A DNA stretch of 22,114 nt from a virus: the IMG/VR virus record IMGVR_UViG_3300025010_000240, positions 1-22,114 of that record; one strand, given 5' to 3'. The stretch's first letter is position 1. Each line of letters starts with the position of its first letter. The notes below the pieces were generated by a model that was given only the letters and a program-made list of their open reading frames with translations, had not been told where the DNA came from and ran no database searches. The position numbers were made by a program, and so were the translations under genes. This document shows positions 3,027-15,132 of the stretch, piece after piece.

Positions 3027-3223
3027 CGCCCTCCCTCCTGCAACTCCGCGTACTCGTCCCGCTCATGTCGCATCTGATCCAGTGTGTCCCGCGCGATCTG
3101 ATCCGCGAGCTCGTGGGCGTCGAGGTCGTCGCGGCAGATGGAGCACAGCAGCCCCGCCGAGACCTGCTCGTAGTCGTCGACTTCGAGGATGGTACCATCA
3201 CACGTTAGGCAATATTGCAGCAT
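3023..3223 (-). CDS. Small zinc-ribbon protein (66 aa)
   Basis: The 66-residue product starts MLQYCLTCDGTILEV and has CLTC and CSIC pairs about 18 residues apart. A charged helix rich in Asp, Glu and Arg follows (DDLDAHELADQIARDT). The start ATG shares one base with the preceding stop (TGATG) and has GGAGGTG upstream. The frame is open further 5', but that part is the antisense-like reading of the neighbour. It resembles a treble-clef or zinc-ribbon microprotein, possibly DNA- or protein-binding. The function is unknown. Confidence 0.75.
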   Translation of the reverse strand: MLQYCLTCDGTILEVDDYEQVSAGLLCSICRDDLDAHELADQIARDTLDQMRHERDEYAELQEGGR

Positions 3224-3957
3224 CACAGCACCTCCCACCAGCCGAAGTCGGCCCTGGCCTTGAACCCCGCCGCCCGGTACGCCCCCGGCGCGATGTCGAG
3301 CTTGAACCGCCACGGCTTACCCTCCATCTCGGGCCGCCCGGCCGCCTCGGCAAGCGCCTTGGTCCACTTGGCCGTCGGTCCCCAATCGATGACCCGGAGC
3401 AGCACGGACCGCACCTTGCCGTTTTCAACGATGGCCGGGTTGTACAACAGCAGGTAGATAGGTTCACCCGCCCGAGCCCGTCGCAGCAGATCGCCCGACA
3501 CCCGCGCGGCGCAGTAGTACACCGGTTCGTCGTTGAGGTACTCGCCCGGCTCGTCGGCTCGCAGAAAATACGAGACCCCGACCGATTTGCCCTTGAGTTT
3601 CGGCCACGTGTCGAGCGTGCCCATGATAGGGTTGAGATACCCGCGCAGCGAGTCCGGCACGATCCGCTCGTAGTAGTCCCGGGGCGTGTACATCGCCGGC
3701 TTCGGGCCGCTTCCGTCCGGGTCCGCGATGGGGAAAAACGCCTGCCCCTCGTACAGGTCGCCGTAATCGGTCGGCCCGCCGTAGGTCGAGACCTGGCCCC
3801 ACTCGTGCGGGATCATCCCGGCGACCCCGCGCCGGATAAATGAGGTAGCCGCGCGCATGGCCGTCTCGGTCCGCGGGCCGGGGAGGCCGTCCTGCGTCAG
3901 GCGGGCGTTGTAGTGGCCGTTCAAAAATGCCTGTGCTGCAAATACGATATTGATCAT
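3223..3957 (-). CDS. Peptidoglycan-binding / double-psi-barrel protein
   Basis: This is a 244-aa protein. Residues about 8-42 (FLNGHYNARLTQDGLPGPRTET...) match a PG_binding_1-like repeat, with the Asn/Tyr-rich loop, DG and the T..A helix. The C-terminal part has the hallmarks of an RlpA/expansin-like double-psi beta-barrel: VLLRVIDWGP (185-194), then KLDIAPGAYRAAG (219-231), comparable to RVxDRGP...xDLSxAAA in RlpA. Such proteins bind or cleave glycan strands, so it may be a phage cell-wall lytic enzyme. No signal peptide is visible. The start at 3957 is set by AAGGAGACGAC just upstream and an ATGA overlap. A 42-base longer in-frame form lacks an RBS. The substrate is unproved. Confidence 0.6.
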   Translation of the reverse strand: MINIVFAAQAFLNGHYNARLTQDGLPGPRTETAMRAATSFIRRGVAGMIPHEWGQVSTYGGPTDYGDLYEGQAFFPIADPDGSGPKPAMYTPRDYYERIVPDSLRGYLNPIMGTLDTWPKLKGKSVGVSYFLRADEPGEYLNDEPVYYCAARVSGDLLRRARAGEPIYLLLYNPAIVENGKVRSVLLRVIDWGPTAKWTKALAEAAGRPEMEGKPWRFKLDIAPGAYRAAGFKARADFGWWEVL

Positions 3958-7316: not shown

Positions 7317-7326
7317 ATCACTGCAA

Positions 7327-7355
7327 GTTGTAGCCGATAAAAAAGGGGTTGTCAA
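7327..7355 (-). promoter_or_regulatory. Leftward early promoter (sigma-70 type)
   Basis: On the minus strand, TTGACA (7355-7350) is followed by a 17-base spacer and TACAAC (7332-7327). This is a perfect -35 and a 4/6 -10 at optimal spacing. The region just upstream is A/T-rich (TTTTTTGCAAAAATATC), like an UP element. The start site is expected near 7320, 35 bases before the SD of the first leftward gene. It uses the same hexamers as the promoter at 8597-8625. Confidence 0.8.
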
Positions 7356-7510
7356 GATATTTTTGCAAAAAAGTGAGAGAAAATGAAAATGACAGCAAAA
7401 ACGGTGAAAATCATTTTGTTACCGGTACCGAGAGAATGAACTATGTCCATGCGAAAACTAGCAATGACAGTGACTTTTCGCGCTTTCTGGCATAGCGCGC
7501 GTCGCGTGCA

Positions 7511-7545
7511 TGTGCGCGCGGGTAATAGGATCGTGCGCACATACG
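7511..7545 (+). repeat. Bipartite repeat A, copy 1
   Basis: TGTGCGCGCG (7511-7520), 11 unrelated bases, then CGTGCGCACATACG (7532-7545). Copy 2 keeps both blocks exactly and the 11-base gap. The second block contains the palindrome GTGCGCAC, suggesting a dimeric DNA-binding protein. Confidence 0.75.
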
Positions 7546-7562
7546 GGTTAGGGAGGCCTCGC

Positions 7563-7581
7563 AAAGCCGCTCTGCTGGCCG
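7563..7581 (+). repeat. Repeat B, copy 1
   Basis: AAAGCCGCTCTGCTGGCCG; 18 of 19 bases match copy 2 at 7714-7732, in direct orientation. It lies 17 bases inside repeat A copy 1, on the side facing the AT-rich island. Confidence 0.7.
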
Positions 7582-7620
7582 CGCGTACGAACTTTTGCCT
7601 CACCTACGACTCCCTCTGCT

Positions 7621-7680
7621 TTCTTTTACTATGCAAAAAAAAAAATCAATTCTTTTTCTTTCTTCTCTATATATAGGATA
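7621..7680. other. AT-rich island
   Basis: About 60 bases stand out from the GC-rich genome: an 11-A tract (7635-7645), a pyrimidine-rich run and TATATATA near 7668. It sits almost midway between the two copies of both repeats A and B. It is a candidate DNA-unwinding element; the A-tract may also bend DNA. Confidence 0.5.
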
Positions 7681-7713
7681 CCGCATAGGCTGGCAGGTGC
7701 GTCAAATCTCCGG

Positions 7714-7732
7714 AAAGCCGCGCTGCTGGCCG
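7714..7732 (+). repeat. Repeat B, copy 2
   Basis: AAAGCCGCGCTGCTGGCCG, differing from copy 1 (7563-7581) by one base. It lies 29 bases from repeat A copy 2, again on the side facing the AT-rich island. Confidence 0.7.
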
Positions 7733-7761
7733 GTTTCTTGCGTGTCCCTATCATCATTTCT

Positions 7762-7796
7762 TGTGCGCGCGATCAGATTCCCCGTGCGCACATACG
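7762..7796 (+). repeat. Bipartite repeat A, copy 2
   Basis: TGTGCGCGCG (7762-7771), 11 bases, CGTGCGCACATACG (7783-7796). Both blocks are identical to copy 1 while the 11-base spacers differ, so the blocks look selected rather than merely duplicated. It is followed by CGTGCACG, a further short palindrome. Confidence 0.75.
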
Positions 7797-7929
7797 CGTG
7801 CACGTTGCCCGTTCGCACGGTGGCCTGTGGCGCGTCCGGTTACTGCGGTAGGGTGATTCTGCGTTTCTGCGTTTCAGATGGCACCACGGGCACGGTAGAC
7901 GCCTTCTCAAGGCCGCCTTCGTTCCGATT

Positions 7930-7957
7930 GGGGGTTGGGGGTGCGGGGGAAGGGGGG
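7930..7957 (+). other. G-quadruplex motif
   Basis: Four G-runs of 5, 5, 5 and 6 bases are separated by loops TT, TGC and AA. This fits the strict G4 consensus with unusually long tetrads. It starts one base beyond the stop codon of the leftward 58-aa gene and lies on the strand that is template for leftward transcription. It could stall RNA polymerase or a replication fork. Confidence 0.6.
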
Positions 7958-7958
7958 A

Positions 7959-8184: not shown

Positions 8185-8550
8185 CTAATCGGCGAAGTTG
8201 TACCATTGCGAGTCGTTGGACAGCACTGCAAACCGTTCGATCTTGTTCCAAAGGTCGCCCATGCTTAGCTCGAAATCGCCCATTTCTTCCAGGATATCGG
8301 CGGGGGCGGGGTTCTCGTCGGCGTCGGCGTCGATGTCGCCGATGTCCATCACGTCAAGGACCGGGGTCAGTCCAAGACGGTGCGCCGCTTCAATCCGGTG
8401 GCAGCCTTCAGCGGCCATGTACACGCCTTCGCCGTCGTTGTAAAAGCAGCGGATGACCGGCGCGCCCATGGTGCGCATCTGCTCGATCACGTCGTTCAGG
8501 TGGGCGTTGCCTTCGGTCTTGTCGATGGTGTGCAGCGTGATGATCATCAT
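8185..8550 (-). CDS. ParB-like nuclease-domain protein (121 aa)
   Basis: The ATG at 8550 (MMIITLHTIDKTEG) has GAGGAG upstream; the next Met codon is an alternative start. Residues about 18-70 match the ParB/sulfiredoxin-like N-terminal fold, above all GVYMAAEGCHRIEAAHRLGL (42-61), the counterpart of ParB box II GxxRxxAAxxLG. The usual ParB HTH and dimerisation domains are absent; instead there is a very acidic tail (DIGDIDADADENPAPADIL). Stand-alone domains of this type in phages are reported as nucleases or nucleotide-binding proteins. Location beside the repeat-rich control region makes a DNA replication or segregation role attractive, but no ParA partner is visible. Confidence 0.6.
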   Translation of the reverse strand: MMIITLHTIDKTEGNAHLNDVIEQMRTMGAPVIRCFYNDGEGVYMAAEGCHRIEAAHRLGLTPVLDVMDIGDIDADADENPAPADILEEMGDFELSMGDLWNKIERFAVLSNDSQWYNFAD

Positions 8551-8596: not shown

Positions 8597-8625
8597 GTTG
8601 TACCTCGCAAGTATCATTGTGTCAA
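8597..8625 (-). promoter_or_regulatory. Leftward promoter of the ParB-like gene
   Basis: On the minus strand, TTGACA (8625-8620), 17-base spacer, TACAAC (8602-8597). The hexamers and spacer length are identical to the promoter at 7327-7355, and A-rich sequence (GAAAAGTGAGAAAAAGTG) precedes it. Transcription should start near 8590, about 40 bases before the ATG at 8550. Confidence 0.8.
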
Positions 8626-8653: not shown

Positions 8654-8670
8654 TTCAAACCTGTTGAAAT
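8654..8670. promoter_or_regulatory. Putative operator, repeat copy 1
   Basis: AAACCTGTTGAAAT (8657-8670) recurs with one change at 8754-8767. This copy is also an interrupted palindrome, TTCAA-N5-TTGAA (8654-8668), flanked by GTAAC/GTTAC arms. It lies about 32 bases upstream of the -35 of the leftward promoter, a normal place for a regulator. Confidence 0.4.
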
Positions 8671-8720
8671 TGTTACGCTTTTTCATCGGTGATCCATGTG
8701 TAATTCCCTGGTGATTCTTG

Positions 8721-8753: not shown

Positions 8754-8767
8754 AAACCCGTTGAAAT
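8754..8767. promoter_or_regulatory. Putative operator, repeat copy 2
   Basis: AAACCCGTTGAAAT matches 13 of 14 bases of 8657-8670. It ends 15 bases before the -35 of the rightward late promoter, where an activator or repressor could act. Confidence 0.4.
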
Positions 8768-8782
8768 GATTCCACTTTTCCC

Positions 8783-8843: not shown

Positions 8844-8876
8844 GGGGTCCTCTTCGGAGGGCCCCACTTTTATTTT
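8844..8876 (+). terminator. Intrinsic terminator in late leader
   Basis: GGGGTCCTC (8844-8852) pairs with GAGGGCCCC (8857-8865) in a 9-bp stem with one G-U pair, closed by the extra-stable C(UUCG)G tetraloop and followed by ACTTTTATTTT. It is strong and oriented for rightward transcription. The U-tract ends about 58 nt after the predicted start at 8818 and 52 bases before the small-terminase start codon. Late genes must be read through it, implying antitermination, attenuation or a small leader RNA. Confidence 0.8.
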
Positions 8877-8928
8877 CCGTTGCAATTTCAATGACTTCGG
8901 GCTATTGATACGGTGGAGGGTTGCCCCT

Positions 8929-9432
8929 GTGTCTATTGCCGAGCCTTCGATCCATGAGATCATCAACCGACGAGTGAGAGCGCTTGCCCGCGAGGGGAAG
9001 AAACCTACTCGCATTGCTGCGGAATTGCGCCTGCAAAATTTCGACATCAATGCAGCGCAGGTTCGGTTGATTCTCGAAAACACCGAAGACGATCAGCAGC
9101 CCGCGCCCCCGGCGGCTGCACTTGATGCGGTTGCCATCGCCCATGAAAATCAAAATGCGATCCGGCAGCTGGTTGACGACGCAATGGAGGTTGCCAAGCG
9201 CAAGGCAGAGGAGGAGGGAAAAGATGCTCTTGGTGTTCGGATCGCGATGGGCGCGGCCCGCCTGTCGATGCAGGACTACATCAACAACGCGATTGCCGGC
9301 ACGTGCAAGGCTGGCGCTTTGTACAAGCTGCTCGGTGGCCAGGCGGATGATCTTCCGAAGGCGCTCGAAGTTCGCGTGCACGTTGTCAGGCGCGAAGATC
9401 CGGTTACTACACCCACTCCGGAGCCTGTCTAA
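8929..9432 (+). CDS. Terminase small subunit (putative)
   Basis: The 167-aa protein starts at GTG 8929, which has GGAGGG eight bases upstream; a TTG at 8905 is in frame but lacks an SD. The N-terminus (IHEIINRRVRALAREGKKPT, then RIAAELRLQNFDINAAQVR) is a helix-turn-helix, as expected for a DNA-recognition subunit. A helical centre and a basic Pro/Thr-rich tail (VRREDPVTTPTPEPV) that could contact the large subunit follow. It ends in TAATG overlap with the large terminase. The assignment rests on HTH plus position, since small terminases diverge strongly. It corresponds in place to Mu gp27. Confidence 0.7.
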   Translation: MSIAEPSIHEIINRRVRALAREGKKPTRIAAELRLQNFDINAAQVRLILENTEDDQQPAPPAAALDAVAIAHENQNAIRQLVDDAMEVAKRKAEEEGKDALGVRIAMGAARLSMQDYINNAIAGTCKAGALYKLLGGQADDLPKALEVRVHVVRREDPVTTPTPEPV

Positions 9433-10688
9433 TGGTCGCCGTTTACGATCTCGATCTTTACGAATTCCAGGCGGACGCCGTTGAACTCGACGGTACCGTT
9501 AAAGCGAAACAGAAAAACGTTTTGCTTTCCGGTACGGGCGCAGGGAAGTCGTTCCTCGGTGCGTTCATCTTGACGCGGTGGTGTGCAGGCGGAAACCCTC
9601 GTGATGAGTACTACGCTGTAGGACCAACGCGAACTCATTTGAGACAAAATCTGTGGAAGGAATTCCGCTTCATGCTTACCCGTTTTGGGTTTCGCGAGGA
9701 TCGGCATTACGAGTACAACCGAACCGATTTGACGATCACGATGTTTCACAACGGGGTTGTGATTTACGGCAAGACCGCAGACGCCCCAGGGACCATGCAG
9801 GGAACTCACGTAAAGGGCGTTGTTGCCGACGAGATGGGTATGTACACAGCAGAGGCATGGCACGTGATCCAGCAGCGGTGCAGCTTCAACAAGGCGGTGC
9901 TGTGGGTCTGTACTACCCCGTATTCATGGAACTTTTTGAAAAAGGATCTGTACGATCCTTGGTTAGCGAGCGGCAAGGATCACCCCGAGATTAACGTGTT
10001 TCAGGTGCCGTCGATTTCCAATCCGTTCTTCCCGCTTGACGAGTACGAAAAGGCAAAGCGGAATTTTCCTCGATGGAAGTTTGACATGTTTTATCGTGGC
10101 ATGTTCACACGCCCGGCTGGCCTTGTCTACAGCGACTATACGACGACGACGATTCCACTTGCAAATCCGGTGCGGACGTTTGCGGGCTTCGACTATGGGT
10201 ACAACAACCCCGCTTCCATCGTTTGGATCATTGAAGACGGGCGCGGAAATTATCAGATCCAGCGCGTCTGGAAGAAGTCACAGGCCGATCACGACGTGCT
10301 TGCAAGTGCAATGAAATCAACACGTTGCGAGTACTACGGCGATCCGAGTGCAGCCGGTGTCATCAATGAAATGAAGAAGCGCGGGATCTCGATTGAGCCG
10401 GGCAAGAATGACGTCATGGCCGGTATCGGCGTCGTTGATTCCATGTTCCGAACCGGCCGGTTGACGATCCTTGAAGGCGAGACATCCGACCTCATCGAAG
10501 AGCTGGGCCTCTACTCGTGGCAGACGGATGGCAGCGGCGAACCCGTTGAAAAGATTGAGAAATCCAATGATCACACCTGTGACGCGTTGCGATACGCGAT
10601 CTTCACGGGCATGGGCGAGAACCGAGCACACACGGCCGTGCACAGCGGCGGTGTGCTCCAAACGATCCGCGAAACAGCGAGGTTTTAG
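9432..10688 (+). CDS. terL: Terminase large subunit (ATPase-nuclease)
   Basis: This 418-aa DNA-packaging motor has the Walker A site SGTGAGKS (33-40), Walker B VKGVVADE (127-134, catalytic E134) and the coupling motif CTTP (160-163). The C-terminal RNase H-like nuclease has acidic residues D254 (GFDYG), D304 (YYGDPS) and D384 (DHTCDALRY). Both domains look intact. It is expected to dock on the portal and translocate and cut concatemeric DNA. The start codon overlaps the small subunit stop by one base (TAATG). It resembles the Mu gp28-type / Terminase_6-like group in size and in being followed by a DUF935 portal. Confidence 0.93.
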   Translation: MVAVYDLDLYEFQADAVELDGTVKAKQKNVLLSGTGAGKSFLGAFILTRWCAGGNPRDEYYAVGPTRTHLRQNLWKEFRFMLTRFGFREDRHYEYNRTDLTITMFHNGVVIYGKTADAPGTMQGTHVKGVVADEMGMYTAEAWHVIQQRCSFNKAVLWVCTTPYSWNFLKKDLYDPWLASGKDHPEINVFQVPSISNPFFPLDEYEKAKRNFPRWKFDMFYRGMFTRPAGLVYSDYTTTTIPLANPVRTFAGFDYGYNNPASIVWIIEDGRGNYQIQRVWKKSQADHDVLASAMKSTRCEYYGDPSAAGVINEMKKRGISIEPGKNDVMAGIGVVDSMFRTGRLTILEGETSDLIEELGLYSWQTDGSGEPVEKIEKSNDHTCDALRYAIFTGMGENRAHTAVHSGGVLQTIRETARF

Positions 10689-10690
10689 CG

Positions 10691-11953
10691 ATGGCTGACA
10701 AATCACTTCTTGAGAAAATCACCGAACGATTGTTGTACGATTTTTCGGGAAACTACGCGGCGAACCTGAGCAACTGGACGGCTCAGAACGTTTATGAAAT
10801 CTTTGAGAAAATGTGGATCCTGGACGATCACATTAAAGGCGGGTTGCGCATTCGCAAATCCAAGGCGTTCTCGTTTCCGTGGGACGTGGTACCGGCTGAG
10901 GAAACACCGCAGGCGGAGGAAATCGCCCTATGGGTAGCCGACGCCCTCGAACGTCTCGACATCGCAGAGACTGCCGGAGACCTGTGGACAGCGGTCCCGA
11001 TGGGCTTCGGTGTCAACGAGGTGGTGTGGGGACAGCGTGAGGATCGCCTTGAAATCATGGAAATTAACGGCGTGCATCCCAAGTTCGTGACGCAGAACGC
11101 CAGCGGTCCGATCATCAAGGCAACGGGAATCGAAATCGAGACCTGGAAGATCCCGTACAAGTTTCTCACCATGAAATACGATCCGCTTTTTGACGCTCCG
11201 GACGGCCTGCCCGTGCTGGCCGCGTGTTACTGGCCGTACACGTTCAAACGCCTGGGGCTCAAGTTTTGGGCAACCCTTTTGGAGCGGTTCGGAGTGCCCT
11301 CGTTGGCTGCAATGTTTGATTCGTCTGCACCTGTGGCAAAAACCACGCCGGAGGTTGAAACCATTGGTGAAATCGCAACTGCGATCACCGTGGAAATGAG
11401 CCGCCTTGCCAACGGCGGCGCGATTGCGATCCCGAACATCCGGGACCTCAAGGTGCTGAACCCCACCGGCGGCGGTGCGGACTTCGAGCTTTTTCAGATC
11501 GCGTGCAACAACGCGATCAGCGTCGCGATCCTCGGTAACACGATGACGATGGATTCGCAATCACGCGGATCACAGGCACTCGGCACGGTGCATGCGCAAA
11601 TCACGGAGGACATCGGCAAGGGCGACTCCCGCTTCATCGCACGTGCCATCAACACACTGATCCGGTGGATGGTGGATCTCAATTTCGGTGTGGACGTGCC
11701 CGCGCCGATCTTTGGATGGGACACGGCCGGGTCCGCCTCGTGGGACGCCGTGGTACAGGCCATGGATCGGGGCGTCCCGGTCTCGAAGAAGAAAATCTAT
11801 GAGACTCTCCACGGTTACGAACCCGCCGATGATGATGACGCCTTCGTCAAGGCCCCGGACGCAACCGGAGCAGGCTCCGGCAACGGGGAGGTCGGCATGT
11901 CCGCCCGCCCTTTCGTGCGTTGTTCGCTGCCCGGAAGGAGAAAGAGAAAGTAG
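10691..11953 (+). CDS. Portal protein, DUF935 / Mu gp29-like
   Basis: The 420-aa product begins MADKSLLEKITERLLYDF and shows the DUF935 pattern: early YEIFEKMWILDDHIKGGLRIRK, central MKYDPLFDAPDGLPVLAACY...FWATLLERFG, then ILGNTMTMDSQSRGSQALGTVH. It is the dodecameric DNA gate of the capsid vertex. It starts two bases after the terminase stop. It is shorter than typical Mu gp29-like portals (about 500 aa), and its last residues become basic and atypical (CSLPGRRKRK) where it overlaps the next frame, suggesting that the C-terminal portion is encoded in the following -1 frame (see findings). Confidence 0.88.
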   Translation: MADKSLLEKITERLLYDFSGNYAANLSNWTAQNVYEIFEKMWILDDHIKGGLRIRKSKAFSFPWDVVPAEETPQAEEIALWVADALERLDIAETAGDLWTAVPMGFGVNEVVWGQREDRLEIMEINGVHPKFVTQNASGPIIKATGIEIETWKIPYKFLTMKYDPLFDAPDGLPVLAACYWPYTFKRLGLKFWATLLERFGVPSLAAMFDSSAPVAKTTPEVETIGEIATAITVEMSRLANGGAIAIPNIRDLKVLNPTGGGADFELFQIACNNAISVAILGNTMTMDSQSRGSQALGTVHAQITEDIGKGDSRFIARAINTLIRWMVDLNFGVDVPAPIFGWDTAGSASWDAVVQAMDRGVPVSKKKIYETLHGYEPADDDDAFVKAPDATGAGSGNGEVGMSARPFVRCSLPGRRKRK

Positions 11954-14208: not shown

Positions 14209-15132
14209 ATGAGTGACGTTTCTTCGGCCTCCTATAACATGCTCGCGATCCTCGCGGGCACCGGGCCTCATTTCATCGTTTCCCGGGCCGTCGTCCGTGC
14301 CGGTGGCAGCGTGAACGAAGCCCTGGTCCCGGGCTGCGTCTTGCAGGCGGACACCAACGCGCACAATCTCGAACCGTGGAACGGCACCAACACGCCCCTT
14401 GGTATCCTGTTGCAGCCGATCACGGCGACGACCTCCGCGCAGCTCGCGGACGTGCTCGTCCGGGGTCACGTCAAGCCGGAACACGTGCACATCTTCAACG
14501 CTACCGCGAACGTCAAGTTGACGGCCGCGCAGTGGAACCAGATGAAGGCTTCCGGCCTGCCCTCCGCGTCGTATGACTATCGCCCGATTGGCGCGATCAG
14601 CGGCGCTCTGGAAGACGAGGATGGCACCGCACGCGCTGGCATCGTGGTAACCCTGAAGGACGCCGCAGGAACCACCATCGGAACGGCCACCAGTGCGGTT
14701 TCGACGGGCGCGTACTCGTTCACCGGAATTACCACCGGAGAGTACTACCTGAACGTGCCCGCCACGTCGGTTTACTACGCGACGACCTCGCAGCCGGTTT
14801 CCGTCACGGAGAACGCGACGACCACGGCCAACATCACGAGCCTGTTCAAGGTCGGTTCCATCGCCGGTATCTGCACGGACGACGATACCCCGGCCGTGGA
14901 ACTCGAGGGCGTGTCCCTGATCTGCTACCTGACTGGCCACAGCGGCGATCCGGAGTACGGTCCTGTGCTGAGCGGTGCTGATGGTGCCTACGAATTCGAA
15001 AACGTCCGTGTGGGCACCGCGTGGATCATCACGGCGAGCCTGACCGGCCACGACACGGAAACCGTGTCTTCGATCACGGTCGAAACCGACACCGAAACTG
15101 AACTCGACATCGTTCTGGATGTTACCACCTAA
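14209..15132 (+). CDS. Head decoration protein with two Ig-like domains
   Basis: In this 307-aa protein, residues 1-125 are a second decoration domain (MSDVSSASYNMLAIL, GILLQPITA, VLVRGHVKPEHVHI, LTAAQWNQM) related to the preceding gene. Residues about 126-208 (GAISGALEDEDGTARAGI...) and 213-305 (GSIAGICTDDDTPAVELEG...) are two beta-sandwich domains of the carboxypeptidase-regulatory / SdrD-B type. Each opens with G.I.G and carries the GAYSFTGITTGEYYL or GAYEFENVRVGTAW motif. Such domains on a capsid should project outward and bind weakly to surfaces or glycans, as proposed for Hoc of T4. The SD AAAGGAG is strong. Confidence 0.75.
   Translation: MSDVSSASYNMLAILAGTGPHFIVSRAVVRAGGSVNEALVPGCVLQADTNAHNLEPWNGTNTPLGILLQPITATTSAQLADVLVRGHVKPEHVHIFNATANVKLTAAQWNQMKASGLPSASYDYRPIGAISGALEDEDGTARAGIVVTLKDAAGTTIGTATSAVSTGAYSFTGITTGEYYLNVPATSVYYATTSQPVSVTENATTTANITSLFKVGSIAGICTDDDTPAVELEGVSLICYLTGHSGDPEYGPVLSGADGAYEFENVRVGTAWIITASLTGHDTETVSSITVETDTETELDIVLDVTT

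Follow-up and report, generated by a model that had tools for sequence, protein, structure and literature searches.

The region from 7511 to 7796 of IMG/VR virus record IMGVR_UViG_3300025010_000240 is well supported as a cis-acting nucleoprotein site, and we propose that it is most likely a theta-type replication origin of this phage, or one of several, with a probability of about 0.4. The record was analysed whole (22,114 bases, referred to here as the window) and comes without a completeness estimate. In this region, two pairs of repeats, A and B, are nested around an A/T-rich core in an apparently non-coding setting by leftward genes.

The repeats and the A/T-rich core

The features of the region and of its surroundings are as follows (window coordinates):

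7322-7958, no strand: apparently non-coding stretch of about 640 bp containing the element, flanked by two leftward transcription units
7327-7355, minus strand: promoter-like TTGACA-N17-TACAAC (exact match), preceding the leftward early genes (from 7288 down)
7511-7545, plus strand: repeat A copy 1, the dyad TGTGCGCGCG-N11-CGTGCGCACA (7511-7541) plus TACG
7563-7581, plus strand: repeat B copy 1, AAAGCCGCTCTGCTGGCCG
7620-7680, no strand: A/T-rich core with an A11 run (7635-7645) and CTATATATAG
7644-7656, plus strand: IHF-like site AATCAATTCTTTT, at the centre of symmetry and with one mismatch to WATCAANNNNTTR; a hint only
7714-7732, plus strand: repeat B copy 2, AAAGCCGCGCTGCTGGCCG
7762-7796, plus strand: repeat A copy 2, the dyad TGTGCGCGCG-N11-CGTGCGCACA (7762-7792) plus TACG
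8597-8625, minus strand: second, identical promoter-like TTGACA-N17-TACAAC (exact match), preceding the genes for a 121-aa and a 58-aa protein

The nested order A-B-AT-B-A and the coordinates given in the initial annotation were confirmed. Read as a direct repeat, A is TGTGCGCGCG-N11-CGTGCGCACATACG with identical blocks in both copies and different 11-base gaps (GGTAATAGGAT vs ATCAGATTCCC), and the two copies of B (pattern AAAGCCGCKCTGCTGGCCG) agree at 18 of 19 positions. The longest direct repeat with at most one mismatch in the stretch is 19 nt, compared with a maximum of 14 nt in Markov sequences of the same composition (n=100). At up to 3 mismatches, the window contained no further copy of A, except its own reverse-strand reading, and no third copy of B; the chance expectation is about 0.02 matches per shuffled window for A and B each. 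The repeats exist at the annotated positions and exceed chance by far.

Repeat A is also an inverted repeat, which had been overlooked. Its 10-bp arms have one mismatch, a G-U pair in plus-strand RNA, and TGTGCGCGCG-N11-CGTGCGCACA differs from its own reverse complement at 2 of the 20 specified bases. The earlier statement that all copies point in the same direction thus holds for B and for the ATACG tail of A, but not for the A dyad. Likewise, the description of conserved blocks with variable spacers does not fit A, since N11 is the spacer between the arms of a single dyad. Each arm itself comes close to the palindrome GTGCGCAC. With their centres separated by 21 bp, or two helical turns of B-DNA, the arms have a spacing that would be expected for a dimer contacting one face of the DNA, and we predict from this arrangement that A is likely a dyad bound by a protein dimer. 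Copy 2 of A lies 251 bp, or about 24 turns, from copy 1.

In the whole window, a run of 8 or more A or T occurs once, as the A11 tract at 7635-7645, and CTATATATAG is found at about 7668-7677. Both had been noted as lying in the centre of an otherwise GC-rich record, and indeed 40-bp windows within 7621-7680 go down to 17-20% GC, compared with 60% for the whole window. An A/T-rich region beside repeat sites, such as a theta origin would need for unwinding, is present, and the island is crossed by ad hoc ORFs only. The IHF-like site in the core is a hint only, because after shuffling of the island a comparable site arises at the centre in 3.8% of cases and at any position in 22%. The midpoints of the A dyads (7651.5) and of the B pair (7647.5) agree with the proposed near-symmetry about 7650. 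However, midpoints within 4 bp of each other are also found in 6% of random nested pairs, so that the nested symmetry is mildly unusual by chance and, by itself, weak evidence.

The phage record and the search for relatives

The source phage has a contractile tail and a Mu-like head. Rightward genes in the right part of the record encode the large terminase (terL, 9432-10688) and a Mu-type portal (10691-11953), followed by a minor head protein, head protease, decoration, major head, neck, tail sheath and baseplate-like proteins. The late rightward genes start at about 8905, beyond a terminator-like hairpin at 8844-8865, with a putative small terminase gene (terS, 8905-9432) assigned from position only. 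The left part consists of small leftward genes, nearly all of which have no family match; the early operon encodes HTH_40/HTH_28-type and other HTH-like proteins. Among the scanned proteins of the 22,114-base record, none was recognised as a transposase, integrase, ParA or replication protein; the window contained no tRNA, and no convincing ORF was present in 7322-7958 as judged by eye. The record is probably incomplete.

Several other features were observed in the window. An amidohydrolase gene (Amidohydro_2, E 3e-12) at 706-1659 on the minus strand is unusual cargo for a phage leftward early region. Direct repeats of AACCYGTTGAAATKRTT at 8658-8674 and 8755-8771 occupy the divergent gap that separates the leftward unit from the terminase genes, with a similar sequence upstream of the major head gene at 15131; these direct repeats are possible late-control sites. 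The only G-quadruplex-type motif of the window (runs of 4 or more G), GGGGGTTGGGGGTGCGGGGGAAGGGGGG at 7930-7957 on the plus strand, ends beside the stop codon of the leftward gene for the 58-aa protein, in whose transcript it would form a C-rich, Rho-site-like tract. A small transposon with outer ends ATGTGCGC...GCGCACAT was considered and dropped, as a clean target duplication was not seen in the sequence.

Searches with DNA, motifs and proteins, in collections from which near-identical records may be missing, found no relatives carrying the region. The DNA search of phages and plasmids gave no significant match, the exact A pattern had 0 matches in IMG/VR, and searching the literature with the A core sequence turned up unrelated papers only. 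Paired GTGCGCACA at 227-257 spacing was found in 10 contigs, nearly all in open frames or in other repeat arrays, and none of them resembles the region. The B pattern was found in 17 contigs, but these matches are attributed to chance because each is one copy in a long open frame (mostly read KAALLA) with no GTGCGCAC nearby. In IMG/VR, protein searches with the first early protein, the 121-aa protein and the protein encoded at 3223-3954 found no relatives. Relatives of terL in IMG/VR and bacterial genomes are 28-32% identical (at most 32%), the portal has one IMG/VR relative at 25%, and the gene layouts upstream in these relatives differ from that of this phage.

Three other loci were examined for comparable arrangements, two of them (L028 and L032) on contigs with paired GTGCGCACA. 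At L028:1395-1645, GTGCGCAC and TTTGTGCGC repeats lie directly 3' of a tyrosine-integrase-like gene (112-1365) and are probably attP arm-type sites. At L032:3172-3424, six GTGCGCAC palindromes are packed into 250 bp where an ORF without assigned function begins, near a gene for a ParB-like nuclease-type protein, and could be an iteron array. The paired hairpin at L004:3730-3985 was rejected as an analogue: it is a 150-bp tandem duplication upstream of terS with a terminator-like hairpin in each unit.

A replication origin as the favoured reading

An origin fits the region because of the A/T-rich core, the dyads, the setting beside the early genes and the analogy to ori-lambda. The repeats are unique in the window and beyond chance, A is a dyad, the core extends over 60 bp, the A and B pairs are centred within 4 bp of each other on the IHF-like site, and the location is an apparently non-coding one between leftward units with identical promoter-like sites. 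Protein binding at the blocks around the A/T-rich island, as proposed in the initial annotation, is a fair inference, and a replication origin, one of the two roles it named, is still the best single guess.

For the binding proteins, the bending, the melting and replication itself, we infer the following scheme. A phage-encoded dimeric initiator would bind the two A dyads, with its half-sites two turns apart on one face of the DNA, while the B boxes may be bound by a second factor or by the initiator in another mode. The A-tract and the IHF-like centre would bend the DNA and join the two A-B arms, and the A/T-rich core would then melt for helicase loading.

In ori-lambda, O dimers are bound by nearly perfect inverted repeats of 19 bp next to an A+T-rich region of 40 bp, so that dyad-type sites, here putative initiator sites, and an A+T-rich region in an early segment are common to ori-lambda, iteron origins and the region described here (PMC5043065). 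The arrangement differs: ori-lambda and iteron origins have a phased cluster on one side of the core, whereas the phage studied here has two dyads 251 bp apart, one on each side. Furthermore, ori-lambda is located in gene O, whereas 7511-7796 lies outside any convincing gene and no initiator was recognised among the scanned proteins, most early proteins having no family match and the record being a fragment. The two copies per repeat, widely spaced and flanking the core, count against an origin, as an iteron array would sit on one side; the symmetry (6%) and the IHF-like site (3.8%) are each weak alone.

The cumulative G-C skew has its minimum at 7818, just past the right A copy, which at first sight favours an origin. 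However, the skew at third codon positions stays level across the region (-0.078 on the left and -0.082 on the right), and the shift sits in codon position 1, from -0.263 to +0.329. Therefore, the minimum follows coding direction (codon positions 1 and 2), not replication. Right of the element, the two small leftward genes show a skew opposite to that of the other leftward genes, but over a total of only about 540 bases. A switch in replication strand asymmetry at 7511-7796 is absent by third-codon skew, which counts against an origin, but a phage origin may show none.

It is also conceivable, though we consider it quite unlikely, that an undescribed phage lineage uses the region as a symmetric origin, or as an origin and packaging site combined. 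The two 31-bp dyads and both B boxes would then bracket a central core for bending and melting and would be bound by proteins without a known family.

Packaging, operator and other readings

A packaging site (pac or cos) is an unlikely alternative: the small terminase subunit would bind A and/or B flanking the bent A/T-rich centre and direct the first cut. To the right of the element, about 1.1 kb away, are the putative terS and terL. A cos or pac site usually adjoins terS or sits inside it, but here two leftward genes separate the element from the putative terS. No cos-like symmetric nick site was identified in the region; the record is a fragment. A packaging site fits because terminase genes are near and a bend would lie between paired sites, as in SPP1 pac and lambda cosB. 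In SPP1 pac (pacL-pacC-pacR), the cut site pacC lies between the TerS sites pacL and pacR, the former being intrinsically bent, and in lambda cosB (R3-I1-R2-R1), an IHF bend joins two R sites and the AT-rich I2 segment has poly-dA and poly-dT, so that in both a bent, A/T-rich or IHF-bound segment near terminase genes is flanked by paired sites (PMC4856287). Unlike these sites, the element here has about 1.1 kb and two oppositely directed genes between it and the putative terS. Moreover, pacL and pacR share no sequence, whereas A and B are each present here as near-identical copies.

A looped operator, which we also consider unlikely, would have a dimeric phage regulator on the A dyads that bridges them or reaches the promoter at 7327-7355 and controls the leftward early operon. 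Repeat A has the form of a classic dimer dyad, and the about 24 helical turns between its copies recall the looped operators of phage repressors, in which dimer dyads are found at integral helical-turn spacing. A promoter-like site is present about 155 bp downstream in the leftward sense, and the early operon encodes the HTH-like proteins described above. On the other hand, the promoter lies 155 to 435 bp away from the dyads, which, unlike those of phage repressors, overlap no promoter recognised here; the second, identical promoter has no A copy, and the A/T core and B would be left unexplained.

The remaining readings are weaker than the origin, packaging and operator readings. In an attP site, which is improbable, a tyrosine integrase would bind A and B as its arm-type sites, with a bent core between them. 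The repeated outer sites and the central A/T-rich, IHF-like segment resemble lambda attP with its arm-type sites and IHF bends, and the GTGCGCAC array at L028 is directly 3' of an integrase-like gene. However, that match was selected by pattern and the L028 phage is unrelated in sequence; in the window, unlike in lambda attP, neither an integrase nor core-type inverted sites were recognised, and a tRNA is absent.

It is very improbable that the A hairpins work in a transcript, as a regulatory RNA or leader, and not as DNA sites. A does fold as a stable hairpin on both strands, with the G-U pair of the plus strand being an A-C mismatch on the minus strand. However, the two copies of B keep no single conserved fold, no T-run follows the hairpins, and neither A1 nor A2 was called as a terminator or had the features of an intrinsic terminator pair. 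A DNA-binding site is preferred because the folding of wider windows (120 nt) does not exceed that of shuffled sequence and no Rfam model was matched at gathering score (chance-level matches only, E 0.3-0.9).

A partition centromere, bound by the 121-aa protein (8185-8550) that the initial annotation had called ParB-like, is the least probable reading, with very little probability: repeats are commonly found near par genes and the protein has a stretch resembling a ParB/Srx-type motif (GCHRIEAAHRLGL, by eye), but it has no Pfam, PHROG or NCBIfam match and no recognised HTH, its structure model was unusable (models built without alignments had mean pLDDT of 40 and 48 and were discarded), and no ParA was recognised among the scanned proteins.

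As it stands, the finding is an ordinary one, by itself a typical phage cis-acting region and nothing categorically new. If the region is an origin or a packaging site, it would provide a defined 286-bp segment for work on a lineage in which most early genes have no family match, and from the A dyad one can predict the symmetry of the protein that would bind it.
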